Source of the DNA: Ricordea florida
Taxonomy: Eukaryota > Cnidaria > Anthozoa > Corallimorpharia > Ricordeidae
DNA: 64,000 nt
Reading direction: 5' to 3'
Assembly (NCBI GenBank): GCA_949710005.1
Contig: OX453287.1
Coordinates: forward strand, 21,770,517-21,834,516
Below the pieces are notes generated by a model, which did not search any database, had not been told where the DNA came from, and was given only the letters and a program-made list of their open reading frames with translations. A program made the translations under genes and the position numbers. This document shows positions 9,801 through 59,326 of this stretch, in pieces (position 1 is the stretch's first letter; every line of letters begins with the position of its first letter).

Positions 9801-12800
9801 GGATGACTTGTATCACCTCTACAACTACAGCTAATAATGCAACATTTAATTATATGTGTCAGTCACGGATTTAATAAAGTCAGTTACTCTTTACCATGAC
9901 TGATTATCCAGGGATCCACGCCCACTTTAGATCCACTGGGAAGTTCCTATAAATACACAAATTGACACATACACTCTAATGCTATCAGTGAAATGGGTAG
10001 TAAATGAACTTTGTAAATTACTGGGCATACTTAGACAGTAATGCCAACCAAATAAAATGCAATTGTGAAAGTAAAAGACTGAGTGCTAAATGTCTAAGTT
10101 CCAACAAAAGACAAGTACTAGTAATAATACTTGCTTCTGATTTTTTTCTACTAAAATCTACATTGCATTGGTAAAAGTACCTTAACTAAGAGTTTTGTTT
10201 GGACAAGAAAATATTTTGAGCAAAAAAGAAAAAAAAAACAGTTTAGAAAAAATCGTCTTGGTGGTAAAATGTTATTAATAAATCAAAACAATTATTATTT
10301 TAATTCATAAGAAAATTTGGTGATATCCAGAGCCAAGGAAGTCTGGCCATGCACTAGCTGACACAGAATACTGGAATAAGTGCTATTGTACACGTATATT
10401 GGGGAAAGTGAGCCTGTTGTAGACAGATTCAAGTGTAGCATGCATGTTAAAGTTAATTCAAACAATGTTCATAGTAATTAAGGTAAAACAATAATTATAG
10501 CTAAGAGTTACCTCTATTAACCAATCTTCTTGAGTAGGGGTCCCTGGAAAACCTGTAAGTTAAACAATATAACTTATTTGATGATCTGGAGGTATAAAAG
10601 AATACAGCTATATATTTGGAGACATACGGAAAGAATGCGTGGTGTCACCAGCCACCCAGTGGTTTATACCCTAATAAAATTGCAGTGTACAATTTATACT
10701 GAAACAGTTAAAACAATTATAAGTAGCTAAACATAATTAAAAAAGTACAGACTTACCAGCCTTCATCAATTCCCAGTTGGAATCTAACTCTTTCTCTGCC
10801 TGAAGAAAGTACCTTCCATCTGTCCACAGGGCTGCCTTAATATCTGTTACAATAGCAGTGCCTACAAGTGGATACAGACATAATAACAGCAAAACACATC
10901 AATTTTGGTTCATGTTAACTTTATCTTCAATCAATCTTCAAAACGCATTTGACCTAGTCAGCTCACAAAAGCCTTTTTAATAAGGTCATTTTCTTAATCA
11001 ACCATGAGGATGATGACATTCAGTTTAAATATTTCTGTTGGTTCTATGGTTGGAAAGCTTGCCATGGGTGATCAATAAGCAACTTCTCCAAACAATTATT
11101 GCTACACGGTTGAGTAAAGAAATGATGGAAATTAAGAAAGCCATAAACTTGAGAGTAATATATTAAATTAACACCAAATTCTTTGAACAAACAGGCTGGG
11201 AAACATTACTCTACTCAACTAGGGTCTAGGGAGTGAAAGGTGTTAAAGCAAATCACTTGTTTTTACTGTAAAAGAACATTCATCTGAACCTTTAAATTTG
11301 TCATCAAAACCAACCATAATGCAAGGTTTCAATGTAACCTACTAGACTGTATTGTACCTGCAGAACCACTGAAACCAGAAATAAATTCTCTTCTTAGGTC
11401 ACAAGAAGCAAGGTATTCATTCTAAGGAAAAACAAAAACTTGTTATTCTTAACAAACTTCACGATGTTGCACTGCACTAAAATATGCCTAAGCAAAACAC
11501 TTAATTTGCAATTAAAATGAAAGGGCTGTAGACTGAAATGAAGTAACAAAAGCCTTCAGTCAAATAATAATTATTATAATTATAATTATAATTATTATTA
11601 TTATTATTATTATTATTGGGAAATGTGTAACAAAGGTGACCAAGCAAGACATTATCGAGGCCAGCGGCTCACTACAAGTCTGTGCAGGACAAAAGAGTGG
11701 AAGTGAAGCGGCGATTCACGCGATACATAACATATTTGAAGCCGACAATACAGATGCTGTCTTATTGATTGATGCCTCTAATGCGTTCAACTCCTTGAAT
11801 AGGGCTGCTGCTCTGCATAACGTGAGAATATTATGCCCTACAATAGCCACTTATGCAATTAACACCTATAGAGAACCGGCACGTCTGATTATCATTGGCG
11901 GAAAGGAAATGAGATCAGAAGAAGGTACAACCCAGGGGGACCCCCTTGCTATGTATCTCTACGCAGTAAGTCTTCAGCCATTAATAGCACGCTTGAATGC
12001 CTCTACGTTAGTAAAGCAGTGTTGGTTCGCGGATGACGCGATGATGAGTGGGTTGGCCAGGTGGTGAAACTGGCAGAGTTTGCAGCAACCCAACCACAAG
12101 CCTGCTATGCGGCATATACCTTCGGACTGAAGCACAAATGGACGTACTACCTAAGAACATTATCTGATATTGAGGAACTGCTAGAACCATTGGAACGTGC
12201 TATTAGTGATGTTCTGATACCAACAATTACGGGCCATACATGCACAACGAGTGAACGAGAGCTGCTGGCACTACCAGTGAGGATGGGGGGACTGGAACTA
12301 GAAAACCCAGTTGAGCGTGCTGGATTCGAGTACGCAATGTCACTTCAGGTAACCGCTCCTCTTGTCACGCAAATCGTATCCCAAGCGCATGAACCTCCAG
12401 ATGATGCTCTGATAAGATCTTTGCAGTTAACCACGCGTAGAGAGAGAGATGTGAGACTGGACGAAAAATTAGAAGACCTGAGGAATTCCCTACCAGAGAA
12501 GACCAAGAGAGCGATCAATCTCGCAGCAGAGAAAGGTGCTTCAAGTTGGCTAACTGTCATTCCGGTAAAGGAAATGGACTTAAATCTCAACAAGAGGGAA
12601 TTCAAAGATGCAGTCCATTTAAGGTATGACTGGCAGATAAATGACGTACCAAATGTATGTATCTGCGGAGAGCCCTTTAATGTCGATCATGCTATGATTT
12701 GTAAACGGGGAGGCTTCATTATACAACGTCATAACGAGCTGCGGGATCTTGAGGCGCAGATGCTTGATTTGGTCTGTCATGATGTTGAAGTTGAACCAGT

Positions 12801-21317: not shown

Positions 21318-24300
21318 GTAGCTAGCTATAAACTAGTTTGCAATTTTAGCCCTTTTCGCAGAAGCTAGAAAAAGGAAAACTCTCTAGTAATTGTATACTC
21401 CTTTTCTTGCCTTGGAATATATCATGCCAGGAGTTCTTGAAGAAGCCAAGTTTTTTGGAATCTCAAGTATTGTGGAACAGTTGGAAGAAATGGTTAAGGT
21501 GAGCAATCTGCATAATTTTGATACAGTACAGCTGTGAAGGGCTTAGTCTATAAAGAAGATGGTTCTAAGTTAGCTTGCGAACGGAGACGTTTTTCCTACA
21601 CTCGCTTCTCTTCGCCCGGGCGCAGAGAATCCGAGTTCCGGAAAAACGTCTGCGTTAGCGTGCTAGTTCTAAGTCAAAAGCAAATTAAAATACGCAAGAG
21701 CGTGTTTATCAAACGAACTGACAAGCAGGTTTTACCACCGTAAAGTAAGAGAGAAGCTGACGTTTCGCTCCGGATGACGAAGGAGTAACGCTCTCAAGGT
21801 CAGCTACCCCTCAATCTAAAAATCCTACAATTTACCTCACTAATGAATGCGAATATATGAAAAAAATTTCATGTATGTGAACCGCTGCGGAAGAAAGACA
21901 TAATAAGTTAAAGGTCGTAGCAGTTATGTACCTTCGCAACTGTTCAAGTTGCGTGCATAACTGTGAGCATCTTTCACTTATTATAAACCAATTTGTGTTT
22001 GTTTACGACTTGGTGCAACAACTGTTTTATTATCGTGTACCACCTTACGGTAAACGAAAAGGTGACGTTTCACTCTCGTGAAGGGATAATTATCGAAAGG
22101 TCAGCTACGTTTTAATGTTATAATCGTACAACGTACTGCACCTTAGCAACTCGTTTGACTAAGCCGTTATTTTTTGAGTGTTCACTGCTGATTGCAATCG
22201 TCTTATTGTTGTTTGTTTTAGGTGACAAACAAATCTGACGATGCCCCTCTGTCAAGAGATGAATTTGTAAAAATTTTGTTATCCACACCATCAAACTGCG
22301 AACTTCGATGCCAGGTAAAATACATGTTAACTGTCGTTGAGAAATATTAAACATGGAAGATCTATATATCAAACCTGGGGAAATTTGTAAAAGATGTATT
22401 TTTCAGACTTTTTATCTTTCCTTGTTTAGCAAAATAACTGTTATTTAATCGCTTTAGTGTTATCGTTTCACTACTGCAACCAAGCCACTCCACCTGATTT
22501 TGAACTGTTTGTCTTTCAGGGCATTAATCTGGACTCGGCAGATCTTTCCAAGCTGGACTTACGCTTTATCAACTTTAAAATGGCAAATCTTAGAAAAACC
22601 GACCTTGCAAATGCCAACTTATCGAACTGCTGTTTAGAAAGAGCTAATCTTTCTGGTTCACATATGGACGTAAGTAATTGGAAGCTAACAGGCGCGGCTG
22701 TATCAGGGTCTGACCTAGGGGATGGGTGTAGAGGTTGCGCACCCCTCCCTCCCACGGAGATGACCTGCGGCTTTCTAATATAACTAGTACTCTGCAAGAA
22801 AACAAAAGAAACGAACTACGTAGTAAAATATTAAAACATGACTCATACAGTGTTCTCCTTTTCAGGCGGTAACCGGTAAAATTTAACGCCTGTAACTGCA
22901 CTTGTTACCGCCTAAAATGGCCTGAAATTCTTGACAATTCAACAGCTATGCGCGTGTTTTACCGGTTTGAAAAACTCTATTACCTGTTGAGCTGAAATAA
23001 AAGGAGAACACTGCTCAAAGCCCTCTTTGCTGTTCGCTTTTAAAATTTGCTTACTTTACCCTTCAGTTACTTTATTCCTTAGAGATGCACCTCCTTAAGA
23101 AAAATCCTGGATTCGCCCCTGCCTATGGAAACTAGTGGCCTAGCTCATATGCTGACTGCAAATAGTTTCCTGAAGTCCCTTTGTTGAAAACAATGCCGTA
23201 CACATTTTTGCACTGAAATAAATCACTGTGTATGTATGCTACCCAAAAGAAAGAAAAGAAAGTTTTTGATACCAAATAGTCAGTATTAGTCCCACTATTT
23301 ATTTATTAGGCGACTGATTACAAGCAAAGTTAGCTGGTCCGCAGATAGCAAAGGCTAATCGAGGCGGACCAGACTTGAAATAGTTAAGACATGAATTATG
23401 CATACGTGTAACAAAATCGGAAAAACTTTAAAGTAAAATAAACAAACAACCACATGGATAGAGATTAATGTGAAGTCAAGAAAGAAAAGTTATTTAAAAA
23501 TATTCTTATTCGAATAGGGTTATTCTTTGCATTATCGTAGGATTTCAAGAAAGTCATTTTCAGTGTCCAAAATGTTAAACAACTTTGACACTGCAACGGA
23601 TATATTCTTCAGAGGTTGCTATTAATTTTCCTTATTTTTGTTGTTGTAGGGAGCCATTTTAAGTTGTACGCGGCTCCAAAGGGCCCATTTGGAAGGGTCC
23701 TCTCTCAGGGCCTGTAATTTCGAGGATCCAACCGGGACCAGAGCTAATCTTGAAGGTACAATATTTGCATTGCAGATTGAGACGCATCCTTGGTTTATGA
23801 AACAAGCCAATAATGTAAGTTGTACCACGAAACATCAGCTTCAAGTTAACCCTTTAACCCCTGAGATCAAAATCTTAATTCTTCTAACTGATCTCAAAAC
23901 ATCTTTCATTATATCAATGTGGAGATTTTGATGTTATATCAAAAAAAACCTATGTGAGTTTTCAGATTGCATATTCTCATGAGCTCTACAGTTGCCTTTG
24001 TAGTAATATGTTTAAGAGAAGATGCATGTTGGTCACTCTCAGGGAGTAAAGGGTTAACCAACCATTTTATTTGCCAAAATAAATAGAAATAAGTTATATT
24101 AGTACTGTAAGTTTCAGCTTCTTACAGAGGCAGTATGAGTTTCATTCTGTAGAATCTAACTCCTTTACACTGTAAATTTTGACTCTGTTTATAACGGATG
24201 TTGTTTTCTCTCCCGTGTCAGGGGTGAACTTGAAGAATTCAGACCTAGAGGGAAGCCAGTTGGGAAACGTTAATTTGCGTGTGGCCACGCTGAAAGGCGC

Positions 24301-24681
24301 CAATCTACAAAACTGCAATTTACGAGGAGCTGTTTTGGCAGGAGCCGATTTAGAGGTTGGTTACCGATTATCACATGTCGAACACGATTCTCGACTACCA
24401 AGATCACGTGTTCCGCAACCTTTTCTTGTTATCAAGGTCACGTGTCTTGTAACTTGTTTTTTTTAGTTTATTCAGTACTGTGTGTCTCCTCCTGTATTTT
24501 TGCTTTTCGTTTATCTATTATCTGCTCTCAACAGAACTGTAATTTAACCGGATGTGACTTGCAACACGCCAATCTGCGAGGCGCTAATATAACGGGCGCA
24601 ACGCTTGCAGAAATTGCGGGACCGCTGCACATGAGCCAGTCTGTGGGCGCGTTTGTCAGAAATCAGGAACAGATGCAGTGA
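15959..24681 (+). CDS. KCTD9: BTB/POZ protein KCTD9, complete (13 exons, 410 aa)
   Basis: Exons: 15959-16021, 16755-16879, 17561-17604, 18099-18161, 19163-19217, 19381-19436, 20019-20147, 21431-21498, 22222-22314, 22520-22669, 23650-23755, 24222-24355, 24535-24681. All junctions are GT-AG, phases agree, 1233 nt including TGA. Residues about 5-80: N-terminal KHA-like domain ([19 protein letters not shown]). About 100-200: BTB/T1 domain ([47 protein letters not shown]). About 233-395: pentapeptide repeats of A(D/N)LxX type ([32 protein letters not shown]), ending PLHMSQSV as in vertebrate KCTD9 (389 aa). The family acts as a Cullin-3 substrate adaptor. The N-terminus has its own first exon ([15 protein letters not shown]). 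The C-terminus is about 14 residues longer than in vertebrates. Exon 4 is the least conserved part. Confidence 0.95.
16608..16660. repeat. GAT-rich microsatellite
   Basis: Run of GATGAT/GATAAT trinucleotides in KCTD9 intron 1. Confidence 0.8.
18184..18353. mobile_element. MITE in KCTD9 intron, TIR AGGTTAAAATAAATTTCAGG
   Basis: Left arm AGGTTAAAATAAATTTCAGG continues to GGTTCCAA; right arm reads TTGGAACC to CCTGAAATTTATTTTAACCT. Arms about 35 bp, total about 170 bp, no ORF. Confidence 0.85.
18523..18581. repeat. (TG)n microsatellite
   Basis: About 60 bp of TG dinucleotides with two interruptions, KCTD9 intron 4. Confidence 0.95.
18618..18760 (+). mobile_element. tRNA-derived SINE-like sequence
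   Basis: Contains a pol III A-box-like TGTTCAGTGGTAGAGC (about 18630) and a B box GGTTCAACTCC (about 18678), spaced as in a tRNA gene, followed by a tRNA-unrelated body with TGTCTGTGTCTTGCTGAGGA. The tRNA fold is not intact, so this is read as a SINE head and not a tRNA gene. Located in KCTD9 intron 4. Confidence 0.55.
21230..21320. repeat. (ATCT)n microsatellite
   Basis: Tetranucleotide run with some variants in KCTD9 intron 7. Confidence 0.95.
21566..21672. repeat. Hairpin repeat in KCTD9 intron
   Basis: Arms GTTAGCTTGCGAACGGAGAC and GTCTGCGTTAGCGTGCTAG with inner GTTTTTCC/GGAAAAAC, spanning a GC-rich centre. Followed (21725-21800) by a decayed second-family PLE terminal repeat with GCTGACGTTTCGCTCCGGAT. 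Non-coding. Confidence 0.6.
22848..23013. mobile_element. hAT-like MITE, TIR CAGTGTTCTCCTTTT
   Basis: Perfect 15-bp inverted termini CAGTGTTCTCCTTTT and AAAAGGAGAACACTG enclose 136 bp. The CAGTG end is typical of hAT elements; an 8-bp target duplication is not evident. Lies in KCTD9 intron 10. Confidence 0.8.
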
Positions 24682-27730: not shown

Positions 27731-30700
27731 CTAGAATTCCCATCCTTTCTTCTTCGGTTTGGCGATTGTGCTGGCGGATCTCCCGGACCCCGAGCCAGAA
27801 GTGTCGCTTTCTTCTTCTTCGTCATCGTCGTCATCATCTTCACCGTGTTTGGCATTCTGTGCTTTGACGGCTTCGCGGATGGCATCTTCGTCGCTTTCCT
27901 CGTCCTCTTCATCGCTGTTGTTCGACTTTGCTTCTTTGAGTTCTTCAGCTGAAGCGGAAAAATTTAGGGAGGACCAAGTTTCATTCCCATCCTTAGGTTA
28001 CAGTTTTTCATCAATGAACAAAACCTTGCAGAGTGACCATTCGTTAGTTAACTAAAGAATGCTCTGTACGGTTGTTATGTTTGTCTCGCCATAGAGTACT
28101 GTTGTTATCACTTTCTCATCTGTGGTTTAAACTATGTAGTGTGGCCGGCATTCTTTGGAAAGCTACTGAAAAGCCAGTCAGGAACGTGTTATAGAAAGCT
28201 ACTACTAGTTTGGAAAGCTACTACCGTGATGTGTTACTGTTTGTTTTACCATACAGTTCCGTTTGGCCCTCGTAGCGAAAACGTAATGTTACCTTTTCTT
28301 CACTGAAAGCAATTCTTGATTCATGACAGGCCAGCTACGGGTTTATATATTACCATGTGATGCTTAATTGCAACAGTACATCCTGTGGGTAAATGCTCTA
28401 TAAGGTGTTCTTAAGACTTACCTAAGCTAACTTTGTGTTTCTGTGTTTTGAAGTGCTTCTTCTTATGACTCGTGCGATCTTTCTGGTGATGGTGTTTGTG
28501 ATGATGGGTGTGCTCCGCTTCATTCTCACTATCATCTTCTTCGTCTTCGTCTTCGTCGTCTTTTGGTTCTTAAAGAATAGGTGACAAAAACGTAGGGTAG
28601 AAAATTTTTAGTGATTGATAGACCGATAAATAACAGATTGATCAATAAATTTATTGATTGACTTGCACGAGTTGATCAGCAATTACTTGATTGATTCATG
28701 GATCTGTTGATTTTTTAGCTAGATTAGAGGAGTAACTAACGTACTAATCAATTGTTTAACTGACTGACTTTTGACCAACTGTCTGGCTGACTGACTGACC
28801 ACCCATGTAACTCAGCCACTGAGTCATTCACTGACTAACCACCCTTTTTTTCATCCACTGACTATCTGACCGCCTGTCTGACCCATTCACTAAGTCATGC
28901 AATGACTAACCACCCTTACGATTCATCCACTGACTATCTAACAGCCTGTCTAACCCAGTCACTGACTCATGCAATGACTAACCACCCTTACGATTCATCC
29001 ACTGACTATTTAACAGCCTGTCTAACCCAGTCACTAAGTCATGCAATGACTAACCACCCTTACGATTCATCCACTGACTATCTAACAGCCTGTCTAACCC
29101 ATTCACTGAGTCATGCAATGACTAACCACCCTTACGATTCATCCACTGACTATCTAACAGCCTGTCTAACCCAGTCACTAAGTCATGCAATGACTAACCA
29201 CCCTTACGATTCATCCACTGACTATCTAACAGCCTGTCTAACCCATTCACTGAGTCATGCAATGACTAACCACCCTTACGATTCATCCACTGACTATCTA
29301 ACAGCCTGTCTAACCCAGTCACTAAGTCATGCAATGACTAACCACCCTTACGATTCATCCACTGACTATCTAACAGCCTGTCTAACCCATTCACTGAGTC
29401 ATGCAATGACTAACCACCCTTACGATTCATCCACTGACTATCTAACAGCCTGTCTAACCCAGTCACTAAGTCATGCAATGACTAACCACCCTTACGATTC
29501 ATCCACTGACTATTTAACAGCCTGTCTAACCCAGTCACTAAGTCATGCAATGACTAACCACCCTTACGATTCATCCACTGACTATCTAACAGCCTGTCTA
29601 ACCCATTCACTGAGTCATGCAATGACTAACCACCCTTACGATTCATCCACTGACTATCTAACAGCCTGTCTAACCCATTCACTGAGTCATGCAATGACTA
29701 ACCACCCTTACGATTCATCCACTGACTATCTAACAGCCTGTCTAACCCATTCACTGAGTCATGCAATGACTAACCACCCTTACGATTCATCCACTGACTA
29801 TCTAACAGCCTGTCTAACCCATTCACTGAGTCATGCAATGACTAACCACCCTTACGATTCATCCACTGACTATCTAACAGCCTGTCTAACCCATTCACTG
29901 AGTCATGCAATGACTAACCACCCTTACGATTCATCCACTGACTAACTAACTGACCACCTGTCTTACCCAGTCACTGACTCATCCAATGACTAACCACCCT
30001 TACGATTCATTCATTGACTATCTAACTAACCACTTGTCTGACCCAGTCACTGACTCATGCAATCACTAACCACCCTTATGATTCATTCACCGACGGACTA
30101 ACTAATCAACCACCCATCTGACGGACTGATCGAGCGTCAGTCAGCGTCGAGACCAGTTCTTCTCAGAGCCGTCTCCTCGCTGACGATCGAACTCGACTAA
30201 CAGTAAAAAGGTTCTTACTTAGTTTCTTCTTGCAGAGTGAGTAAAATTTGTCATCACAATGGAAATTTGTCCACTGCCCATTCTGATCAGTAGCTATGCA
30301 GTCCATTTCCTGGTCTGCTCTTTCATCTTTGACGTAATCCATCTGAGGACTCATGGATTTGTACGTAAAGTTACCTCCGTCGCTCCACTCAAAATTACTC
30401 TCGTTCTTAACGTCGTTCAGTCCGATCCAGGTGTAGCTACAGAAAGAAGTAAGATTTAGACTTCTAGGCCAAAACTTTGCTCCGCGTTTCACGTAACAAG
30501 GTGTTTGCCACAAAAGAACCTAACCCCAAGGTGCAAATTCAACCCGTGCGGTTTTGATCTGGATTCCGAATTGAATCGTGAATAATATTATTTGGCACCA
30601 GTTTTCGATGCTAAGAACCGTTGAGGGTCAGCGGAATCTGGATTTGTGGGTAGGTACGTGGTGTAAGCATCATATAGTGGTTCCCCGTTAGTGAATATAT

Positions 30701-33700
30701 GGCATACATTGCTCTTCATAGCCATACACGATGCTTACACCACGTACCTACCGATTTGTGAGCCAAGATCACTCGTACCGGTAGGTACGTGGTGTAAGCA
30801 TCGTGTATGGCTATGGAGAGCAATGTATGCCATATATTCGCTAACGGGGAACCACTATATGATGCTTACACCACGTACCTACCCTCGTACCACCCCATGG
30901 GTCCCTTTCCAGAGTGCGTTCATCGGTCCCGTAAATGCACCACAGCGAGCGACTATCCCTAAAGACCGCACTCTTGGTGGATTTTTGATATGGTTTTGAT
31001 CTCGAATCTGAGGAATGCACGGATAACATCCCCGCAAACACAGACAGTCATAAAACCTAGTTTAATGGCCTTGCTTCCACGGATCTCCTGTAGCCCAGGG
31101 GAGGAGCAGGCGAACTAGTATCGAAAAGTTGTATGTTGGACTCTTATTTAGAGATAACAAGTATTGTAGGGATAATTTCTTAAGAAACTGGTGCTGCGTC
31201 GGTGGGAAATTGAAACACAAGAAACTGGGTAAATCAAACGAGTTGATTAAGTAAGTTATACCACCGTAAGGTAAAAGGGAGGTGCTGACGTTTCGAGCGT
31301 TAGCCTTTCGTCGGAGAATTCGGACCTGTTTTTACCGCGTTTGCCTGTGACAGTACTGAAAAATACATCTTACCCACACAGCTGAACTTGGTTTTTAACA
31401 AAGTCTGCCTCTTCCTCTCCTCCGATGGAGGCCAGGTCGGCGCCATATTCCGCACACTTGTCTCTTGCATCATGCCAGGTGGCAAACTCTGTCATTAGTT
31501 TGAAACAGTATGTTCCCTGGTCTGTAGAAAATCTTCGCCAAAACAAGGGGCACACTAGAAAATCAAACCAAAAATCGTTTTTAGTTGCAGTAAACGACGA
31601 TGAGTTTATAGTCTGATGTTTTTCCACTTTGGACGTCATGATATGTGATATGTTGAGACCCAATGGACGTCATGATATGTGATATCGTAAGACCCAGTGG
31701 ACGTCATGATATGTGATATCGTGAGACCCAATGGACGTCATGATATGTGATATCGTGAGACCCAATTGGAAGCGCACAACAAACCTAACTCGGAAACATG
31801 GAAACAAGAGGGATAGGATCAACCAAAAGACTGATTTTTTGGCTAGCTGTGCTCGCTGATTAGGCAGAATATTACAAAGATTTTCTGTCCAATGATGGCT
31901 CTAGACGTATGGGAATGGTTCCGTAATAGAGTCGACGCCCAGGATTCTTTCATAATAAACTATGTCTGTTTCGAGATTCGCCCACTCTGAGCTGGTTTCC
32001 ACCCCGTTTGTCTGACCTTGAGGTGAGAGACCTTTTGAGTTTTGGCCTTAAACCTCTTTTCCACTTCGAACCTCCACGCACTTGGTACGTGTGTCAGGAA
32101 CGAGTAATGACATAAATGAGTCGGAGTCCGGTCCCTTGTTCATTTATTCCATTTCCTAATGTTTTTTCTCTGACTACAACAAACAACAGAAATAGAAACG
32201 AAGGAGAAACGGACCCTCGGTTTGAGTAGAGGTGCCACAGAAACCCCAACACAGGAAGCATAACTGAATGCATACTTTTGTTGTTGAACCTCTTGTTACT
32301 GATTCCGTTTGGATTTTCAATGATCCACTTCGTCACGTACGGTCCGCTGAAAGTGTCGGCTGCTTCAACGTACATTTTCCTTGAAACAACATCGCCTTGT
32401 CCGGACTGATGAATAATACGGATTGAGTTAACTGCCACTGGTTGGTTGAACTCGTACCCTATAAAATCCTCTCCTGCACCGCGGTCGTACCAGCCGTTTG
32501 GCAGCCAGTACGTGGTACTCCTATTGTCAAACGCATTGCTTGGTTCGTAACCCAAATAGCTCGAGCTTGCAAATGCTTTGCCCGAGTTTGAGATTTCTAT
32601 CGGCTTCTGTGCAGTTTTGTCGCTGTAAAATTTCACATTGTTGATCACCCAAGAGCGCGGCAAGGCCGCTTCGTTGACTATTCTCCAGAACTTGTGACCT
32701 GTTTAAGTGAAGAAAGGATCTTATTACGGCAGGTCAGAGATAAAGGGTATTTGTGTGCTGAAGAGAGCATTCGGGACAGAGAGAGACACTCTCACTCCAG
32801 CCCTTGGGATATGAAAACTTCAGAAAAGTTATTTTTGGACACGGAAGTCTGTTTTCCGAGAGGTTCGCATCAGGGGTTTCAATAAAATTAGGCACAAGTT
32901 GGTAGCTGAAAATACTGAAGTTTTCATATCCCAGCTAATGCCCCGAGTGTTCCTCTCTGTCGCTTATGCTCTCTTGGTGTGCTCTATCAACCCCCCTAAG
33001 TGAGCAAGCTCTGAAATAAATTCCCTCCTTTTTGCTTTATTTGTTTTTGGTATGTTAAGACGTGCATCCTCGAAATGCATCAATTCTGATCTGAAAATGT
33101 GTATGGGTTTTAGCCGCACAGCTACAAATACTTGTTTTGCTGTACGCTTCACGTCAATTTAAAAATGAAAATTCTTGACACAGATCGTTTCTGCTATCTG
33201 GTTTACAAATCGTTTTCACTTGCCCACTTTCTCTGACGAATCACACCAGTTGCAGGAGTCTTTGCAGTAGTTGTACATGAAGTGGTGGTTTTCCTCGCAG
33301 AAACAAGGGTTTCTCGCCTTCAGACAGAAGTTGCTGGCTCGTTCGTCGTCCATACAAAAACCTATTTTAAAAATAAAAGGTTTAACCCTTCGTTATCCTG
33401 AAGACCTTCAGAACCTATGTTAGAACTACTCAAAATAGTTTGCAACTTTCCATGGAGATCACCCAAAAGAGAAAGTGTGATACCCTGAAGAGATGTGGTG
33501 GATTGCTCAGAGATTTTAAATTGCGATGCTTGTGTTAAAAGATTTTTTTTTTTGTGCAAAAAGAGTATTTAAAAGATTATGTATGTTAGCGTAAAGTTTT
33601 TAAAAATACAACAAATTGCACTCGCCCTGCGGTACCCGCGCAACGTTTTTAACGTCGGGAAAGTTTATTTGTGCTTCTCCGTTGCAAATTGCACTATAAG

Positions 33701-36700
33701 TCATTGACTGCCTGAAGCAATAAGTTCATGAACGAAGCAAAAACAAAGAAAATGCTTCTTTTCTATGGTACACGCACACTCACCTCGTGTGTCGCTTCTA
33801 GCTGCAAGAATAACAGAGATTAAAATGTGAGTTATCAACAATTTAGGAACAAAACAAACACCGAATATGCGAATCAAATCTAACGTCAAAATTCTGTACG
33901 AAGCTAAAAGTAAAATTTAATAGACCAATAGCAGGAATGAATGGTGAAACAAAGAGGGTAAATTGTAGTGGTACAAATGACGTACGGCAATCCTCATTAA
34001 GCTTTAGCTTTAGTGTTAGGAGTAAGAAGTACCACAAGAGACAAACAAAGATTTCTTTGACCACGGTGAGAATGGAATCCGCGAACTTCAGAACGTAGAT
34101 CCACCCACCGTTGGCGGAAATGCCCGTCAAAGAGGCTTACATGACCATTACATGAGTATTCTGGGGAACGCTTTAAGATTTTGGTAAGATTTCCGCACAG
34201 GTCCCTACGCATTATGCATGCTGGAGCTGTCTTGTCTGGTGTAATGCACGTGCAAATGTTTCTTGTGTTCGAAGAACGAAATAATATAGTTACAGCATGC
34301 ATAATGAAGTAGGGACCTGTGCGGAAATCTTACCAAAAAAACTGACTCTTCATTCACTGTAAACTCTCATCGGCTTAATCCCTGGTCAGGGCCGCGTTTC
34401 CCGAAAGTCCACATAACTTTACGGTCCCAGAGCTCAATATTAAACCCGAAATTCAAAGAATGGTTTAGTAGTTCTTAGTATACAATCCAGCATAAAATGA
34501 AAGTTAACTTATAATTGCATTGGTCAGCGAAGTTGTAATTCCCGTAGTAAACATTGTGATCATAAGACTGATAGCTTTCCGAGCCCAATAAGTTACCAGG
34601 CCTTTCGAGAAAGGGCCCCAAGAGCAAAGTCGTCAAATAAAGTTTTCGGCGCTTTCTCCTTTGCTTTGGAAGTAAGGAGGGCACTTGTTAATTCAAAAAA
34701 CCTGCTGTCAACGGCTGCAGCATGAATTTTTCAGGCTACAATCGGAGAGAAAGATGCTAAAGTAAAGAAATTATGCAATAAACTCACTATGTCCCTTGAC
34801 TGCACCTGAAAGACAAACGAGCAGTTGCAGTAAAAATTGATCAGCAAAACATCACCTACAAAGAATTTAAATTTACCGTTTATCATCTATGGATGAAACT
34901 AGTATCGAGTGTGACCATTCTGTGGAAAGCTACTGAACAGTACTGTACTGTGGTACTGTTTGGTCTACTATACAGTGTGGTTCTAACTTTTTCATCTGTG
35001 GATCAAACCATGCAGTGTGAGCATTCTTTGGAAAGCTACTTAACAGTACTGTACTGTGGTACTGTTTGTTTTACTATACAGTGTGGTTCTAACTTTTTCA
35101 TCAGTGGATCAAACCATGCAGTGTGACCATTCTTTGGAAAGCTACTCAACAGCATTGTACTGTGGTACTGTTTGTTCTGTTCTACTATACAGTATACTTT
35201 TAACGTATCCATTAGTGGCTCTAGGCATACATTGTTACCGGTCTTCCAAAAGTTAAATGCCCAACCGTTTTTCAGAACTAAAACTTGAATACTCTTGTTA
35301 TATAACGTGGTTCTGACTTTTTAAAGCCACAAGTTGTAAGCTGCTGTATGCAGTAGTGTCCCGTAGCATCGTTTATTCCTAACATGGTCAGTCCTATATA
35401 TACTGTTTGTCTGCTAAAATGATGAAAGTGGTTCTTCATTCACAACTGCAAAGGTGTTGCCCTACCAATGTCACATCCTATTAATATTTATGAAAAAAAA
35501 AACGGGAGCCGAGAAACAAGTCCGTACAATCGAAAAGTCCGGAAAACCGAGGTTCGACTATATGATTATGTTCGAGCTGCACTGGCTAGACTTTAATCAT
35601 CACGTACTCATTGACTGCTTTGTTAAGCATTCATCAGTGAGCACGTATCGAGTATTCTGTCATTTGTTACTGAAAACAAGTGGCGATCAAAATATCTACC
35701 GCGCATCAGTGCCAGTCATTTGTTTTGTAAGTTTAATTCGTACACTTTCTTTGTCATTGTTGGTTTTCGTTATTTTGGTCAACGTTTTGTCCAATCTAAA
35801 TTCGCCGAAACATACCTTGACTAGAGGTTGACTTTGCCACTTGTGCCACTGAAAAGCAAATTGTCGCACATTTTTGTTCTTAAAACTTTGAGCAACTCTT
35901 TCTTTTTATATACTTTAAGTCTGATTGGCTTATCAAGAAACACTGTAAATGGTTTGAACCCAGGAGTCTCAGTAGTTGTTTGTTGATTGTGATCGTCCAC
36001 GTGTAAGTCGTTCTGTAAAGAACTGTTGTTGGTGACGCGTACGTTGACTGACATTTCGACAATCTAAGCGGAAGTCATCATCAGCGTCAAGTGATTTACG
36101 TGTCGTCGGATGACTTCCGCTAGGGTTGTCGAAACTTCAGTCAACGTCATTAACCACAGTTCTTTTCAGAACTTCTTACACCCGGACGATCAAACTCTGA
36201 TTTTGGTCTGACTGGTTCTACAATAGATTGCCTTCTGATTTAGTTTACATTTCTGGGTCTAGTAGCTTGACCAGAGAGCAAGATGCATTTTCAATTTGAG
36301 TAAATCACAGTAAAGACGGGTAATTTGAAAAATGCTTTGTTTCATATCAGTCCTGGTCCAACAAGATCACAGACTTAAAGGTAAAGTGCTTTATATTCCG
36401 TGACCATGATATTACAGATTTTAAAACGAAGAACTGTAGTACGCAGGAGAGTCGTGCAACAGGAACTGGAATAAGGTGCGGCTGTGTGGGATTGCTGTTG
36501 CCTTGAATACGCCCTGGGAATACGCCCTTACTAAGAGAATTAGAGGGAATTTAAGGGTGATTCACAAGGAGAACTTCTCAGCTACTTATAAGCTTACCAA
36601 GTGTCAATAATAGCTCACATTAACATTGAGGTGTGATTTCATGGTGTAAAGTTAGAAGATATGTGCACTTGTATACATTAAGATGGTTTGTGAACAAGAC

Positions 36701-39700
36701 GTAGTCCTACCCGCAGACGCCAAAATGGTGGTGGCGGACGGGGCGGGAGCTGGATATGCGTAGGGTGCTGGGTACGGACTGTAGTATGGAGCAGGAGCCT
36801 GTGCTGGTGCTGGATTAACATTGAAGCTGTAGCTAGCGGATGAAGCCTGGTATGGTGAAGCTGCAGGATAAGGCACGAATGCTCTGGCAGGAGCCGGAGA
36901 TTGAACTGGTGCCGGATCCGGGGCAGGGGCAGGTGCCGCCGGAGCTGGTGCTGGAGATGGAGCCGGGGATGAAGGACCAGAGGCAGGTGCAGGAGCATCA
37001 GCAGCAGCAGAGGCAGGGGCAGGAGCATCAGCAGCAGCAGGGGTTGCCGGAGCGGTTGCTGGTGCAGCAGCTGGCGAAGACGCAGGTGCAACAGCAGGAG
37101 ATGGTGAGGGAGCTGAAGCTGGGTATGGCATAGCTGATCTGCTCTGTGTTGTGTCTCCAGGATTGTATGCTTGAAGAGTGAAAAGAATTTAACTGCACTA
37201 AGACACGTGCTTGCCTTCAAACCTAGTTTGTTTTACATGTTGACCAAGTCTTTTGTTTGTCTCTTGCGAACAAGTTTATAGGACCTAATCTTGAAGAAAA
37301 TTCGATCACCAGGAAATTAACTATCGACAAATGCTGTTTATTAGTATCAATGCACTACTTAGCATTCAGGTCGTGAGATTGTGGTATTTGATCGCTTTAA
37401 ATCGGTAGAATTTCCAAGACACTATGCGCTCGAAACTTAGGGCAAGAACGACAATCGGGTCTCTAAAAACCAGCCTCGGTATACTTTGCAATTTTGGTGC
37501 AATTTTTATTTTTCCTTGTATTTCTTCATATGCAGTTATATTTGGTAACCAATGAACTGTACAACGGTAGACAGATTTTGTCAAAAAATGTGAAATTGAA
37601 CAGTTATACGAACCCCTCTATCCACAAATGTTTAAAACTAACAATTTCAGGCCAGTGGGTTGTTTTCGAAACAATCACAGCTTGAACGTTTGAACGACAT
37701 AAATATAAAATCATTTAACATGTTTCTAGGGAATAAACGTAGTTGCAAGTCTTGAAACGTCTTCCCTCGAAAACGTAAGACAAATTGAAAACCTTGCTCC
37801 TGAAATGAAACGTGTTTGATATCTTTCTCACTGCCTCTTCTAATTAAGTCCTACTTTTCAAATTATGTCTTGTCAACCATTTTTCTAAAGCTTTGTTCAG
37901 ATTTGCAAGGACTATAAAAACCCTATCAAGCAGCCCTTAGTTTAGTTATTTGAAGTGGTGAATACAGAGGCGAGACTAAATACAAGTTTGGTAGGTTAGA
38001 CAGATTATACCTGCAGTGTTATATGAAGATGTCTGCTCCAAGTTAGATTCTGTTGCATACTGCTGCCCATATGAAGGATAATCTAGTGAACAGGACATGA
38101 CGTCACCACTTGTTAACCATTACGCAACATTATTAATCTGACCATTTACGGTAGCCCTTTCAGCCCACTGTTAAATTCTGTGTTAGTCAGTTCATTTAAT
38201 TTCTCTTAAGAAAAAATAATCCTATTTTAAATTATCAAAGGCATCCTGTGGTAAGCTCGTGGAGAAAAATTGGCTGCGTGGCAGGTCCTGCTGTATTTTT
38301 CAAAACCTGACCGGGGGGGGGGGGGGTACTCCCGCGAATTTTGGATAGGGGTGTGCCGCGAAGGTTCGTGAACCCTAACCCTATTTAAGGACTAAGAAAG
38401 CGAAAACGGATATCCTTTTTAAGGCCCAAAGCTGAAAAATGACACCCTATTCAAGGAAAAAACAAAATTATTAATAGCATAAGCTACCCTACCTAAGGAC
38501 CACACCAGGGACACAGAAACAAAAGGTTAAAAAAAGGTACCCTATTTAAGGACCGAGAACCTCAAAAACCATACCCTATTCCGCGGCACCTACCTGTATA
38601 GCCCGTATATGGGAGTACCACCCCCCGGGGCCGAACACTCAAAAAGCATGTGGCATGTTGCAAAGTTTGATTGGTCGCCGAATAAGAACCTTTTGACGAT
38701 CTTGAGACGATTGGGTTCTGAATATTTTATTTTTTACGCGTGATATCCTGATTCCCCCATCCACCACAATAGCTCTTGAGCTAAAGCTCCACGAGTTAAA
38801 AAGGGTACCAAACCGTGTTTTCCTGCCACCCAACTTTTGGGCATCAATTTTGTTGTTATTTGTTATTTTTTAAGTTTAAGCTATTGTCAATGCTGCAGAT
38901 GTTAAATTATTACTAACGTTACGTCCTGTACTCGTGTTAAAAGTAACCAAACTGCATATTAAAATAACGCTCATCGTCAGTGTGTTGTAGTTCCTGTCAG
39001 GTTTTATGTTAACTTAGTATTTATGTTATAAATGCTACCGTTTTTCGGCTGCTTTTTTGTTGTTGTTTTTGAGTTGTACCTGTTGCAAATAATGTTCACC
39101 ATTCGTTAACGTCTAGTCAGCGGTTTTTCCGAAACGTTCTCAGGGCGTTCGACAAAATTAAACGCACAACATGTCCTCAAACAAGCTGTATTTCCACGCA
39201 GTGCCAAAAGGCTGGTACCAGATTGAACTGAATTTAGCGAGATAGGAGTACGATGAAAGTTTCCGCCATTACCTCTACGCTGCTAAGTCCTTTCCAAATA
39301 TCTTTGTTCTTAGCCTTTGTTTCGTTCATTTTGGTTGAGTGAGGTGACTATATTTAACACATTGGTTATTCCTTCTTCGAAAACAACGCTAAGAGAGGTC
39401 TACAAACAGTGCTATGTCCTACAGTTACTGAGCTTAGTACGTTGTAGCGTTGACATTGGTAGAACAGAGTACTTCGTTTTATCATGTTTTATTTTAGCAA
39501 TAATTTCTGTATAACTTCAATTTTATTCTGAATGGAATCAAATTTCGTTATTCCCTCCGCATATCCGTCATATCCGTAGGCCATGAAACATGAATCAAAA
39601 CCTGGTATAACTGTTCTATGTAATTCCGTTATCAAAATATGAGCTAATCGTGCTATCAGATTGACATGAACCTTGATGGGTTTTACCCTTTAACACCCAC

Positions 39701-42358
39701 TCAAATAAAAAATTAAGAACCGTGATTTACTGACTGATAGGGTAGATACGTATCCGTATCATGGGCTGTTAAAGAAAAAAACCGTCCAGAATAGATATCA
39801 CGAAAATTTACAACTTCCATCTTAAAACATTAACGAAAAGATAGACAGTTTAATCCATGGACCCTAAACTTATTGACCTTTGTCTGTGGTAGTGATTGGT
39901 AACAATGACGTTGTATTCAGTCTTGTACGGTGACAAGTAGTTTTCATGTTTCAAATGGTGAAAGGAGTAGACTTATGAATGCTGGTAAACATTAAACACC
40001 CCCAATGCAAACAGTTGATATCTCTTTATATATATATGTATATACATATGATGTCAAATTCTGTCAAGAGTGTGCGAAAGAAATCTCGCTATTGAGAATC
40101 CACAAGTCGTTGTTCCCCTGGGTGGCGTATGTGCTTGTTAATTAATAACTAAAGCCAGAAAACTGTCACTATAGGAAACGTTTCTTTATTAGGTACTTTG
40201 TCGTGTATTGTTGAGGAAGTGTATTGCTAGAAATAACAGCAGACATAGGGCATTACCCACTAGAATTTTTGTCAATTTTCATTTGAGATGGCCGGACGGA
40301 TGGCCGAGCACCTCACCAAAATGTCTCTAACCTTGAAGATGTCTGTCTTTCGATACAAAATGCTTAGACTGTTCGAGCTACATTTGAAAGATAAACCTGT
40401 AAAGTCACTTGTTCTTTCTTACTGCACCCGAAAAAACTGTCTCCCCAGAAATCGTCCAATAAAGCATGTTATTATATCTCACAGATAGTACGCGCGCTGT
40501 GATTGCTTAATTTAGCGGGCCGTGCTTCTCTGTACGGCCCGCTAAATTCAAACGTTTGTTTTGAGATATAATAAATATCTTACAAACATCGTTTTCTCGG
40601 TCCGCACTGTAAGTTACGGACCGAGTTTTTTTCCGCTCGGGTTTTTTTATAAATCCGAGCGGAAAAAACTCGGCCCGTAACTTACAACACGGACCTCGAA
40701 CTCGGTTAGTAAAAGGTATGAAGCCAGTTTGAATTGGTTCGCAATTTACATAGCAAATTCATGTTACACCGGATCTATAAAAGGTTTGACCCGAAAAACA
40801 AAATTTGGAAAGGACTCATTCTACTAAGAAATGAAACGAACTAAGTTCCAGCTTTATTTTAAGGAGAGATATTAAACGTCTCACGTGACCAGTCAGCATA
40901 CGTAGTTTTCCCGTTATTAACTGGCAAGTAACATTTCGTGGAAAGCATACTCTACGTTAGCGATCATCCTACCTTGGGAAATCAAAGAACAGTCGCCGCT
41001 TTACCATGATACAATTACTGACTTACAGTTGCAACCTTATACCCAGTTTCGAGATAAAAAATGCAGCATTCCTTTCTACGCCATTTTGGTCATGAAATCT
41101 TGTTCAATCATAATTTGCACCTTTAATAGGATTCCATACAATGAACATAATTTGGATTTCAAATTGTTGTTCATCAACAAATCGAAAATTGGCTAGTCGC
41201 TTAAGGAACGATAAATTTTGAAGGATTTAAACAATATTTAGCTGTTATCACAGCGGGAATGTCGGTATTTTTTCAACACCAGCTGATGTAAAATGATCTC
41301 ACGATTTCTTACCATTTGGCGACGGAATTGCATCTCGTTTCACTTCTTTAGCTACTGAAAAATAAAAAAATGAAATAAAACTATGAAATAGGAATACATG
41401 CAGAAAGTGTCTGACGCTACAAATAATAAGACAAAATGGCCATCATGGATTGAATACTCTCTTCTCTATCAATCTTGACAAGAATGAAATGAAAACCGTT
41501 CTCTTTCTATACCCAAATATATTATACAAAGATTTTCAACACTTTCACGACAACGTTAGACTAGTTGAAGATGCGAAAAAGTTCTATTTTCTCGCACAAC
41601 ACTGACCAAAATGGCAGTGCTGCAAATCGCCAGTTTTACTTCATTTATAAGGTATATAGTGTGATACTCATTGGACGCCATTGTGATAAGATATCGATAC
41701 TCACATTCTTTGACATCTGCCAATCTCTCATGTTGTTCACGTTCTTTCGGTCTTAGACGAAACGTTCCCTGAACTGGATGAGAAATAACATTAGCGACCA
41801 TTGAATATCTAATATTAATGTGCTCCGTCAACCAAACTTCTTTAGAGAAAAACGGAGCTGTTTTTACTTTACACTTGGGCGCAAACCCTATCAAGCCTCT
41901 TATCAAAAAATGTGTGGTTTCCACTACATAGATTGAAAGAAATCTCAATATAAAACCAGTCACTGATCGCACAGGGATATAGAAAAATCAGATAGGGATC
42001 AATTTATTTAAGAAACAACAGGTTGTAAATCAGTCGTGAATTCCGGTACAACAGTTTTTTTATTTCTCCCGTTTCTCGATTAGAAATAAGATTGAATATT
42101 AGAAATCTCTGCGAACAATAGCGTGATTTGGTAAGGTGAGGTAGTTAAAAGGAATTCTTTCTTAAAAGTGCCTTCATTAGCCAAGTCTGAATTACCTTAC
42201 CTATCGTGAATTGGCTACCAGAAATTATGGCGTTCAAAAGTGAAATGCCCTATTACTTAGTGTTCACAGAAATTCCTGGGAAAATTGCAGTTATTTACCT
42301 TACCTTTGACGCCTAAGCTAAAGGTGATCACAATTATTAAAAAGCTCGTTCTCCACAT
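27731..42358 (-). CDS. Secreted mosaic protein: Ala/Pro-rich, ShKT, F5/8C-like, C-type lectin, acidic/His tail
   Basis: Exons (minus): 42358-42304, 41773-41705, 41354-41313, 38082-38011, 37169-36711, 34805-34788, 33801-33784, 33361-33228, 32690-32276, 31554-31374, 30436-30219, 28568-28422, 27948-27731; about 681 aa. Phases fit throughout; the ShKT to F5/8 junction is the one weak splice pair, and an extra exon may lie there. Order: signal peptide (MWRTSFLIIVITFSLGV); charged linker with a KR site; Tyr/Gln segment; about 150 residues of Ala/Pro with Tyr near its end; ShKT domain with six Cys (C-x-D...C-x3-C-x2-C); F5/8C-like domain (SNAFDN, IGYEFNQP, SIRI); long-form C-type lectin domain (six Cys, WIGL) lacking EPN/QPD sugar-binding motifs; HTHHHKHHH stretch; runs of Asp/Glu; Ser/Gly, then KPKKKGWEF end. 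Most introns are phase 1, typical of shuffled extracellular modules. Exact function unknown; a matrix, mucus, nematocyst or skeletal role is inference. Confidence 0.85.
28902..29945. repeat. 72-bp minisatellite, about 14 copies
   Basis: Near-identical 72-bp units (core CCACCCTTACGATTCATCCA) with a few alternating variants (CAGTCACTAAG vs ATTCACTGAG), flanked by degenerate copies at about 28790-28900 and 29946-30110. The unit is a multiple of three and has no plus-strand stop, giving a 24-residue peptide repeat, but it lies antisense in the intron between two exons of the mosaic lectin gene and has no splice or promoter signals. Built from TGACT/TAACT words. Confidence 0.95.
30650..30891. repeat. 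Nested palindrome (TIR element in inverted duplicate)
   Basis: Two arms of about 107 bp (30650-30757 and 30780-30890) are inverted copies separated by about 22 bp. Each arm is itself bounded by the inverted pair GGTAGGTACGTGGTGTAAGC / GCTTACACCACGTACCTACC. Lies in the intron between the two C-type lectin exons of the mosaic gene. Confidence 0.9.
31155..31316. repeat. PLE-type terminal repeat, second family
   Basis: Single copy in the same order as at 7230-7640 and 53318-53470: TTTCTTAAGAAACTGGTGCT, a TTGAAACACAAGAAACTGGG stretch, and ACCACCGTAAGGTAAAAGGG. On the minus strand 31284-31316 resembles a hammerhead (stem II GGC/GCT, CGAAACGTCAGC) but the CUGA core reads CCGA, so it is probably inactive. 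Confidence 0.6.
31627..31765. repeat. 34-bp tandem repeat, about 4 copies
   Basis: Units GGACGTCATGATATGTGATA + TCGTGAGACCCAAT just upstream of the first C-type lectin exon on the minus strand, in the intron. Confidence 0.9.
32752..32985. mobile_element. MITE in mosaic gene intron
   Basis: Inverted arms of about 65 bp: left GAAGAGAGCATTCGGGACAG to ATATGAAAACTTCAG, right CTGAAGTTTTCATATCCCAG to GCTTATGCTCTCTTGGTG. No ORF. Confidence 0.75.
34178..34338. mobile_element. MITE, TIR TTTTGGTAAGATTTCCGCAC
   Basis: Arms of about 30 bp, TTTTGGTAAGATTTCCGCAC and complement, followed inward by AGGTCCCTAC and GCATTATGCATGC. Best-preserved member of the family also at 15231-15372. Confidence 0.9.
34905..35200. 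repeat. 106-bp tandem repeat, about 3 copies
   Basis: Units with TTTGGAAAGCTACT, ACAGTACTGTACTGTGGTAC, CTATACAGTGTGGTTCTAAC and TGGATCAAACCATGCAGTGT. The same unit stands in opposite orientation at 58815-59110, and a degraded single copy lies at about 28060-28280. Confidence 0.9.
35945..36195. mobile_element. Palindromic pair of PLE terminal repeats
   Basis: Two inverted copies of the same terminal block as at 1640-2690 (GGTTGTCGAAAC, AACAACAGTTCTTTTCAGAA, CCCGGACGATCAAACT) with almost nothing between them. No coding part. Lies in a mosaic-gene intron. Confidence 0.75.
36043..36090 (-). ncRNA. Hammerhead-like motif, PLE repeat
   Basis: Minus strand reads TTGACG, CTGATGA, a 20-nt stem II region, GAAA, TGTC, AGTCAA. 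The invariant CUGAUGA and GAAA are kept. The C after GAAA is changed to T and one stem I pair is mismatched, so activity is doubtful. The inverted partner copy near 36105-36150 has lost the CUGA core. Confidence 0.4.
38311..38630. mobile_element. TIR element with poly-G ends
   Basis: Left end CCGGGGGGGG...GTACTCCC, right end GGGAGTACCACCCCCCGGGG. The 280-bp interior holds repeated CCCTATTTAAGGAC/CCCTATTCAAGG words. No ORF. Non-autonomous element. Confidence 0.8.
40500..40705. repeat. Two adjacent hairpins
   Basis: First AGCGGGCCGTGCTTC / GTACGGCCCGCT (40516-40551). Second, about 40595-40705: TCGGTCCGCACTGTAAGTTA with CGGACCGAGTTTTTTTCCGC and CTCGGG pairing to CCGAGCGGAAAAAACTCG and CCGTAACTTACAACACGGAC. 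Long perfect stems, no ORF; MITE-like, in a mosaic-gene intron. Confidence 0.75.
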
Positions 42359-43626
42359 TACTGCAAGTTACATATATCGGCTTGCAGAAGTCCCTCGCAC
42401 TCTCTCCTCGTGATTCCAAACAAGAAGCGTAAGAACAAAGGCTTGGACCAAGTAATTAATTAATCATGATAAATTAGGGTCCATGACATGTGCCCGAGGA
42501 AATGGATAAACAATAGTATGGAGACCACAGCTTGGTCGGCGTTATTTCACAGCAAGTGGCCTGTTTGCCACGCTCACTAGCGCAAGCTTCAAAGTTGTTT
42601 GGTGTTGATGGTTCATTTTTTCGGTTTTGACCCTTTTAGGGTAAATTTGTACCGCGTACGAGGAATTCTTAAAGGAAACGATAAATCCTAAGCACCATAT
42701 TTGATGCTATCTATACGCCCCAAGTTGTTTTTTTACAGATTGCAATTTCGATCAATTTTTCTTCTTCTACTTTCATTTATATCACTCATTTTTTCGTAGG
42801 ACAGGTGACTAAAACTCAAATTAAGACGCTTTTTGAGTGAGAAAAAAGCAAACTTACGAAGTCATTTGAAAGATTTCCTTTATTGAGAACAAAAAAGCTT
42901 ATGTGTTAACTCTTCTTCTAGCGAGTATCGACGTATTTTTTTTGACGTTTCATCTTCCAATGAGCTCGCTCACTATTGACAATAGTTGTCTGTTTCATAC
43001 CTATGATTCTTGAAGTTTACTTGTTTTTCCAACAATACGAACACCAGTTATTTTGGAAAACAGTGTGATTGCTTCTGGTGTCAACAGGTGCATCTAAACA
43101 CGTGACATTCAACCAATCAAAGTAAAGCTATTCGCAAATGGCGCTGATTGGTCGAAGTAGGGTTGATTTGTTTGAAGCGGGCTAAACGGCGCAACCAATT
43201 TAAAATTATCTGTCAATGCCTATGTTAAGAATTCGCAGTGATCACACTTATATTTTTTACTTCCAAACTTAGGATCATAAATCAATGTTCTTTCGGCAAG
43301 TCCTTTGAGTTTGCAGGTCATTGATTACACTTTAGCTGTCCTACGAGCCTTTTCCTCAAATTGTTTAAGCAAAAATATCATTCAAAAGTTTGCAATTCAG
43401 AAAGAGCGGCTAGTATTAGTATAGGTAATAGCATGGTTTGTAGTGATATTTGGTATAAATACCACGAGGGATATTTCAAAATTGTTGTACGTAATTTCAA
43501 GAGCCGTTAAGCGAGTGAAATTTGAGACAATTTTGATATATCTCGAGTGGTATTTATGCGAAATATCACGTACAAATCATGCTATTATTTGTTTATACTA
43601 CTACTCGCAAAAGGTTTGTAATTTTC

Positions 43627-43659
<33 letters not shown>

Positions 43660-44597
43660 ACTGCTCTTAGCCAATCAAATTACAGAAATTTCTCATGTAG
43701 TAGTATAAGCCTAAAAATAGGGAGGAAAGAGCTCGAAAGCATTTCATGCTGATCTTTGCAAAAGTTAGTTTTGCTTGTTGATAATTGGCAAATAGGAGCA
43801 AGGTAGTCTTCAAAACAACGCAAATTCGATTAATCACGTAAAATTAGGATCAAGATGATTATTACGCGCGTGTATCTAGTGTGTTCGTGCGCGTTACTGG
43901 CGCATGACCTCTATGATCCAGATGCTTATTACGCGCGTGTATCTAGCGTGTTCGTGCGCGTTACTGGCGCATAACCTCTATGATCCAGATGCTTATTACG
44001 TGCGTGTATCTAGCGTGTTCGTGCGCGTTACTGGCGCATAACCTCTATGGCCCTTCCATCGAGTGACATGTTCTTGATCTTTGGCATTGTTATCAGGAAA
44101 GATTTGTACACAACGCGATTTACAGTTCTATGAGTATCATAGCACTATTTGAAATACAAGACAGAAATAAACCACTCTAGTGATGCTAGTGTAAATTGGA
44201 GATAATACGCGAAGGACAAAAGCGCCGTTTGTGTGGTTTGCTGGTACCAGCTGTTAAAAACACCTGTTTTAGGAGCCACAGTTTTCAGGTAAAAAGACAG
44301 CGCTCAACTACGTAAAAACAGTTTACCCTCTCTTTAAGCAGCAAATTCGAATGCAACTCGACGTTAGACATGGCTAATTTATGTAAAAATATTATCCTGA
44401 AAATCTTATGTTCCTATAACAAACCGACCAATGTGGCTTATGTTATATGTAGCCTCTCTTGTAAAATGATCTGCCTAATAAATTATGACATTGATGTCAG
44501 CCGAGGTAAGCTGTCTAAAACGTTTTCGCTCCTTTAACACTGGTCAGCGTTTTATTAACTCAGGGGAGAGCTTTTCAATAACTTAACTCTTTTTGTA
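42359..44597. promoter_or_regulatory. Intergenic region between divergent secreted-protein genes
   Basis: About 2.2 kb between the start codons of the mosaic lectin gene (minus) and the CAP gene (plus). Contains an inverted repeat (43440-43690, arms with ATATTTGGTATAAATACCA-type sequence) and a CpG-rich 67-bp triple repeat (43860-44055). No exon recognised. Both promoters should lie here, but I could not pinpoint a TATA box or start site. Confidence 0.4.
43860..44055. repeat. 67-bp tandem repeat, 3 copies
   Basis: Units ATTACGCGCGTGTATCTAGC + GTGTTCGTGCGCGTTACTGG + CGCATAACCTCTATGATCCAGATGCTT (period 67), nearly identical. Unusually CpG-rich for this AT-rich window. Confidence 0.95.
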
Positions 44598-59110: not shown

Positions 59111-59326
59111 AACTTCGAACACTGTTTAATTGCTTCTACACTACCACAGTTCTGAATTGTAGATATGCAGTCGAACACATAACTTCGTGCTGCCTGAACG
59201 TGCTTTACTAACGGAGTCAGTCAGGTTTACACAATATGGTTTCTTCCATAAATAGCCGGCTCTCTAAAGTGACAACCTTCCATTGGCAACTGAGACAAGA
59301 GTCAGGTCCAGAAGCAAATTTAAAGA

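Follow-up and report, generated by a model that had tools for sequence, protein, structure and literature searches.

Within a 64,000-nucleotide stretch of the Ricordea florida genome (GenBank assembly GCA_949710005.1, contig OX453287.1, positions 21,770,517 to 21,834,516; hereafter the window) lies a minus-strand gene, running from 42358 to 27731, whose predicted product is a mosaic secreted protein. From the N-terminus on, its parts are a signal peptide, a propeptide, an alanine/proline (Ala/Pro) region, then ShKT-like, discoidin-like and C-type lectin-like modules, and lastly a tail that is acidic and rich in histidine. These modules are known ones in a new combination; the architecture was not found named in the main texts and passages searched, which is no proof of its absence. 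Our favoured reading is that of a propeptide-processed mosaic structural protein, most likely packed into cnidocysts as part of the capsule wall, tubule or matrix, and we give it a probability of roughly 0.4. It is preferred over a role in mucus or extracellular matrix, in skeletal matrix or as an immune lectin; what makes us lean towards the cnidocyst is the lysine-arginine (Lys-Arg) site that ends the propeptide, together with the Ala/Pro region and the additional cysteines of two modules.

Joined, thirteen exons form one open frame that starts with ATG, ends with TAG and gives a predicted protein of 673 residues. The initial annotation had drawn thirteen exons with consistent phases and about 681 codons; its exon number and consistent phases stand, with corrections to the strand, the last exon and the GC-AG intron, and its length becomes 673 residues, or 696 residues in 14 exons if the probable extra exon described below is added. 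Eleven of the twelve introns are in phase 1, the remaining one, within the lectin domain, being in phase 2. Near-uniform phase-1 introns are the pattern of exon-shuffled extracellular proteins. The GC content is 49.7% in the exons vs 39.7% in the introns. The length of an open reading frame is by itself uninformative here, one of at least 178 amino acids occurring in 3 of 20 shuffled windows.

Exon 1 (42304–42358; all exon coordinates refer to the minus strand) supplies the start codon and the signal peptide MWRTSFLIIVITFSLGVK and ends in a phase-1 donor. Exon 2 (41313–41354) contains the end of the propeptide with its Lys-Arg site and then the start of the mature chain, VAKEVKR preceding DAIPSPN. 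This is the propeptide end expected of nematocyst proteins; cleavage itself is predicted, and the mature protein would begin with DAIPSPNDYPSYGQQYATESNLEQTSSYNTAAYNPGDTTQSR. Between these two exons, a splice-signal scan points to a further exon outside the thirteen-exon model, exon 1b (41705–41773, phase 1-1, 23 codons). With it the N-terminus reads MWRTSFLIIVITFSLGVK-VQGTFRLRPKEREQHERLADVKELAKEVKR-DAIPSPN, and exons 1b and 2 together read as a charged propeptide ending in RLADVKELAKEVKR.

Exon 1b probably belongs to the gene. When short symmetric phase-1 exons were sought over the 64-kb minus strand, nine rows were returned, six of them inside the gene, and these six correspond to exon 2 (two rows), exons 5, 6 and 7, and the new exon at 41773–41705. 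The same scan gave 8, 3, 7, 6 and 7 rows in the other five strand and phase classes, with thresholds that were chosen after the scores of exons 5–7 had already been seen. Under a stricter setting, in which both sites had to reach at least 4 bits, two minus-strand rows and one plus-strand row were left, and at 5 bits none.

The Ala/Pro region and the acidic/His tail, both named in the initial annotation, are borne out by composition. Exon 4 (36711–37169) is 60% Ala plus Pro, with 51 Ala and 41 Pro among 153 residues and Tyr-Pro motifs near its end. It is preceded by a Tyr/Ser-rich segment in exon 3 (38011–38082), and followed by three linker exons: exon 5 (35816–35848, 11 codons), exon 6 (34788–34805, 6 codons) and exon 7 (33784–33801, 6 codons). 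The tail of 121 residues comprises 33% Asp plus Glu, with runs of each, 17% Lys plus Arg and 9% His, and it may plausibly bind metal or mineral. Exon 12 (28422–28568) is acidic and His-rich, with the motif HTHHHKHHH, and read-through from it would stop after GKS; exon 13 (27731–27948) encodes the acidic C-terminus, which finishes with KKKGWEF before the TAG. Another acceptor for the last exon, at 27991, was rejected for its in-frame stops, while the acceptor at 27948 leaves the frame open. Peptides of the predicted protein include IVNEAALPR and MYVEAADTFSGPYVTK.

The three modules proposed between these regions fared unequally. For the C-type lectin module the claim is confirmed by a domain search of the translated model, in which PF00059 matched at 9.3e-18 (65.4 bits vs a cut-off of 22.6), and E values of 0.01 or better were obtained for 193 solved sequences; on these matches the assignment to the C-type lectin-like fold is certain. 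Exon 10 (31374–31554) encodes the first half of the domain and exon 11 (30219–30436) the second. EPN/QPD and WND are the motifs of calcium-dependent sugar-binding C-type lectins. Both are missing from this domain, SPQMD... and WTNFHC standing there instead, and ordinary calcium-dependent sugar binding is therefore unlikely. Six domains of this type from the same genome were aligned, of which L005 and L040, taken on the wrong strand, were set aside; the other four all keep at least one of the motifs (EPN and WND in L002, EPN in L001, WND in L004 and L041). Genome-wide, PF00059 has at least 128 matches, with 150 of 152 candidates scored.

For the F5/8C-like module, several discoidin-type models do match exon 9 (32276–32698), which is without cysteine, but all fall below their cut-offs: NF047619 at 2.9e-6 (27.4 bits, cut-off 38), PF25302 at 5e-4 and PF00754 at 0.0066. 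The domain is accordingly called discoidin-like here. Against solved structures, exon 9 gave two matches (E 1.1 or worse), and a related two-row profile, A1, gave seven (E 0.45 or worse). Single-sequence structure prediction for the exon was too poor, with a mean predicted local distance difference test (pLDDT) score of 39, and no fold search was based on it. Apart from exon 9 itself, just one locus of the genome, C5, matches it at E ≤0.01, and it is 39–40% identical. The two share a discoidin-like domain; at C5 (L010:3144-4906) it is split over two exons and is followed downstream by a weak match, below cut-off, to the ALK/LTK glycine-rich model PF12810 (0.0074, L010:7614-7832). PF00754 itself has at least 159 matches across the genome (150 of 711 candidates scored).

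The ShKT claim failed in one search and held in another. PF01549 gave no hmmscan match to exon 8 (33224–33361) up to E 10, and the exon is not in the genome-wide PF01549 table, for which 150 of 246 candidates were scored. A hidden Markov model (HMM) built from 19 of 20 ShKT exons fetched from the same genome, by contrast, scored exon 8 at 15.4 bits, the aligned part being its C-terminal half only. None of 1995 scored shuffles reached this value (2000 made; maximum 11.9), nor did any of 2000 shuffles with the cysteines fixed (maximum 13.8). Searched against the genome, exon 8 has three other matches, all weak (E 0.5–8.2); two are in both the ShK table and the training set of the HMM, and the third has two entries of that table within 2 kb. 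Against solved structures there was no match up to E 10. The exon contains seven cysteines, as does the lectin domain. Six is the usual count for both ShKT and C-type lectin modules, and hence there is one extra in each.

The gene looks single-copy. The genome searched comprises 537.8 Mb in 48 contigs, and the whole protein has at least 61 matches in it (66 of 110 candidates scored). Eight lie within the window, 51 involve nothing but the lectin region (34% identity for the top-scoring one) and two fall at the C5 discoidin-like locus. It is because the matches elsewhere are only lectin-type domains and this one discoidin-like locus that the gene looks single-copy. The Ala/Pro and acidic exons had no match elsewhere in the same search, such sequence being hard to search. 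Pairs of modules were compared by eye in the tables of matches. Among the matches listed (150 of 711 PF00754 candidates), one discoidin and lectin pair on C12 is separated by about 21 kb and one on C9 by about 33 kb; for ShKT and lectin domains (150 of 246 ShK candidates) the nearest pair, also on C9, has about 40 kb between its members. Relatives were also sought among viral contigs, where 14 stretches fit a pattern and none was confirmed.

From the modules, the cysteine counts, the Lys-Arg site and the predicted exon structure, we infer a scheme of processing, cross-linking, docking, cation binding and site of expression. The signal peptide would route the protein into the secretory path, and the capsule vesicle would be where the charged propeptide ending in Lys-Arg is removed. 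The Ala/Pro region may then form a stiff, extended spacer, while disulphides from the ShKT-like and lectin-like modules, both of which exceed six cysteines by one, could cross-link the protein. The discoidin-like and lectin-like domains might attach to a matrix of glycan or protein, for example the chondroitin of the capsule, and the acidic/His tail would bind cations.

There are precedents for parts of this scheme in the available passages of several papers. One of them describes a putative propeptide with Lys-Arg at its end as conserved in diverse nematocyst proteins (PMC4321713), and in the case of a Nematostella collagen, a minicollagen-type propeptide suggested cnidocyte expression, which single-cell data confirmed (PMC12549020). 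Minicollagens possess a propeptide, and alanine-proline repeats occur in two cubozoan minicollagens (PMC7981951). In capsule proteins a rigid polyproline domain is paired with cysteine-rich disulphide cross-linkers (PMC6910907). So far as these passages go, the protein resembles minicollagens and CPP-1 of the nematocyst wall in being secreted and in having a proline-rich rod, cysteine-bearing domains and a Lys-Arg propeptide. It differs from them in lacking Gly-X-Y repeats and the minicollagen cysteine-rich domain, and its rod is Ala-Pro rather than polyproline. A second likeness is to NOWA, the C-type lectin of the Hydra nematocyst tubule. It too is secreted, comes from a cnidarian and combines a C-type lectin-like domain with modules that bear cysteines, and lectin-matrix docking has been proposed for it in the part of PMC10014300 available. 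NOWA, however, has several minicollagen cysteine-rich domains, of which the present protein has none, and the Ala/Pro, discoidin-like and acidic parts belong to the present protein. A more speculative step, which we consider rather doubtful, is that the protein represents a new cnidocyst structural class, in which an Ala/Pro rod, cross-linking heads of ShKT-like, discoidin-like and non-sugar-binding lectin-like modules and a cation-binding tail would replace collagen repeats and minicollagen cysteine-rich domains.

Several points weigh against a place in the cnidocyst. Lys-Arg propeptides occur in other secreted proteins too, and the site is not specific. The protein sequence of the propeptide has no match elsewhere in the genome, and its exon 1b, while probable, rests on splice signals. 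Of the features of minicollagens, Gly-X-Y repeats, a cysteine-rich domain and adjacent cysteines are all absent from the sequence. As for other proteins, the coral C-type lectin A043-D8, which has no minicollagen domain, was not seen in obvious cnidoblasts according to the passages available (PMC2629781). The corresponding passages on nematocyst proteins of Acropora digitifera contain no ShK, discoidin or proline term, and the sole C-type lectin match named in them is a snake lectin, of another kind (PMC4604070).

A possible, if somewhat unlikely, alternative is that epithelial or gland cells make it as a general protein of extracellular matrix, mucus or adhesion, in which a glycosylated or hydroxylated Ala/Pro spacer would carry discoidin-like and lectin-like heads that bind matrix. 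The four N-glycosylation motifs of the protein are consistent with such a role, as is the abundance of F5/8C and C-type lectin modules in this genome, given above. The expression of a secreted coral C-type lectin in dispersed cells of the ectoderm, which were no obvious cnidoblasts, as described in part of PMC2629781, points the same way. By itself, though, a role of this kind leaves unexplained both the Lys-Arg propeptide and the extra cysteine in each cysteine-bearing module.

It is unlikely that the protein belongs to the skeletal organic matrix, with an acidic/His tail that binds calcium or mineral. The acidity of the 121-residue tail, at 33% Asp plus Glu, would suit this role, and one octocoral skeleton has been reported to contain 10 carbohydrate-binding proteins, mostly lectin-related, in a paper with ShK and F5/8 type C domains listed in its figure legends (PMC7853314). 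The SAARP and CARP acidic proteins of coral skeletons are likewise secreted and have acidic stretches. They are characterized by about 20% Asp and an isoelectric point (pI) near 4 (20–21% and 3.9–4.2 for SAARP1 and 2 in the available text of PMC4043741), whereas the present protein has 49 Asp among 673 residues (7.3%), a predicted pI of 5.1, and modular Cys-rich and lectin-like domains. Taken as a whole, it has too little aspartate for a SAARP-type skeletal protein. In addition, the main texts of three papers on stony-coral skeletal proteins (PMC4890752, PMC7115838 and PMC4043741) contain no C-type, ShK or discoidin term, and in the last of these the only lectin domains mentioned are those of three MAM-type proteins. 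A lectin of immunity or symbiont recognition is improbable: the lectin domain and the discoidin-like domain, with its sub-cut-off match to a NADase-type glycan-binding model (2.9e-6), would fit one, but the sugar-binding motifs kept by the four other domains compared are gone, and the gene looks single-copy.

That a single mosaic secreted protein is encoded, as first proposed, is supported by the consistent phases and by the sole suitable start in the regions scanned. Six hydrophobic ATG starts lie in 42300–44500, 33362–37100 and 28600–33300 (37100–42300 was left out of the scan), and only the one at exon 1 has a listed phase-1 donor; no second gene start combining the two features was found in these regions. 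The splice sites, scored with approximate matrices, are uneven. Several rank among the best 2% on the minus strand of the window, while the acceptors of exons 8, 10 and 12 reach only the top 16–23% of all AG sites, and the donors of exons 3 and 9 only the top 11–12% of GT sites. With scores ranging from very good to weak, the weakly scoring exon boundaries are open to revision. Intron 8 is GC-AG (donor gcaagt) and all other introns are GT-AG; for intron 8 the frame would also be kept if a GT donor lying 4 bases further upstream were paired with an acceptor 8 bases inside exon 9. Two genes, one for an Ala/Pro secreted protein (exons 1–7) and one for a ShKT/discoidin/lectin/acidic protein (exons 8–13), could be argued from the GC donor, the weak sites, the shortness of exons 5–7 and the predicted nature of the exon joining, but phase-1 continuity runs across the exons and neither of the two hydrophobic ATG starts in 37100–33362 has a listed phase-1 donor, which makes such a split highly improbable.

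Two introns of the gene contain tandem repeats. In intron 11 a 72-bp unit is repeated 17.7 times at 28817–30094 with a 95% match, and as 72 is a multiple of 3, the array yields a plus-strand open frame of 368 codons that need not be a gene. In intron 5, adjoining exon 6, a 106-bp unit is repeated at 34908–35178 and again 24 kb away at 58825–59120; the unit forms tandem arrays on several chromosomes, with at least 151 matches (40 of 947 candidates scored). Elsewhere in the window, a 13-bp AT-rich repeat of about 62 copies at 2772–3576 gives three overlapping open frames of 279–297 codons. Neighbouring genes include exons of a CAP/SCP secreted protein (PF00188) at 48150–49609 on the plus strand and, at 59330–60436 on the minus strand, a rhodopsin-type G-protein-coupled receptor whose 369 codons form one uninterrupted open frame (PF00001, 4.4e-25). 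Open frames with pentapeptide repeats (PF00805) lie at 22430–22780 and 24176–24463 on the plus strand, and mobile-element fragments with reverse transcriptase and GIY-YIG domains at 11537–12064 (plus strand) and 1962–2387 (minus strand). Fluorescent proteins account for a further 61 matches in the genome, of which 57 fall on C11, with exons grouped at about 9–20 Mb. One such exon matched Azami-Green and Dronpa best, and scored slightly lower against engineered fusions of cFP484, an octocoral protein. Taken by itself, this single exon would point to a stony coral as host, which would also suit a skeletal role.

Finally, we note that a gene that looks single-copy and has peptides as distinctive as those of the Ala/Pro region and HTHHHKHHH could be placed with existing coral proteome and single-cell data. 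If skeletal, the protein would be a matrix component of lectin-like type that differs from the acidic proteins described to date. If it is instead a protein of the capsule or tubule, as we favour, the known structural proteins of the cnidocyst would gain a modular building block that is not a collagen.
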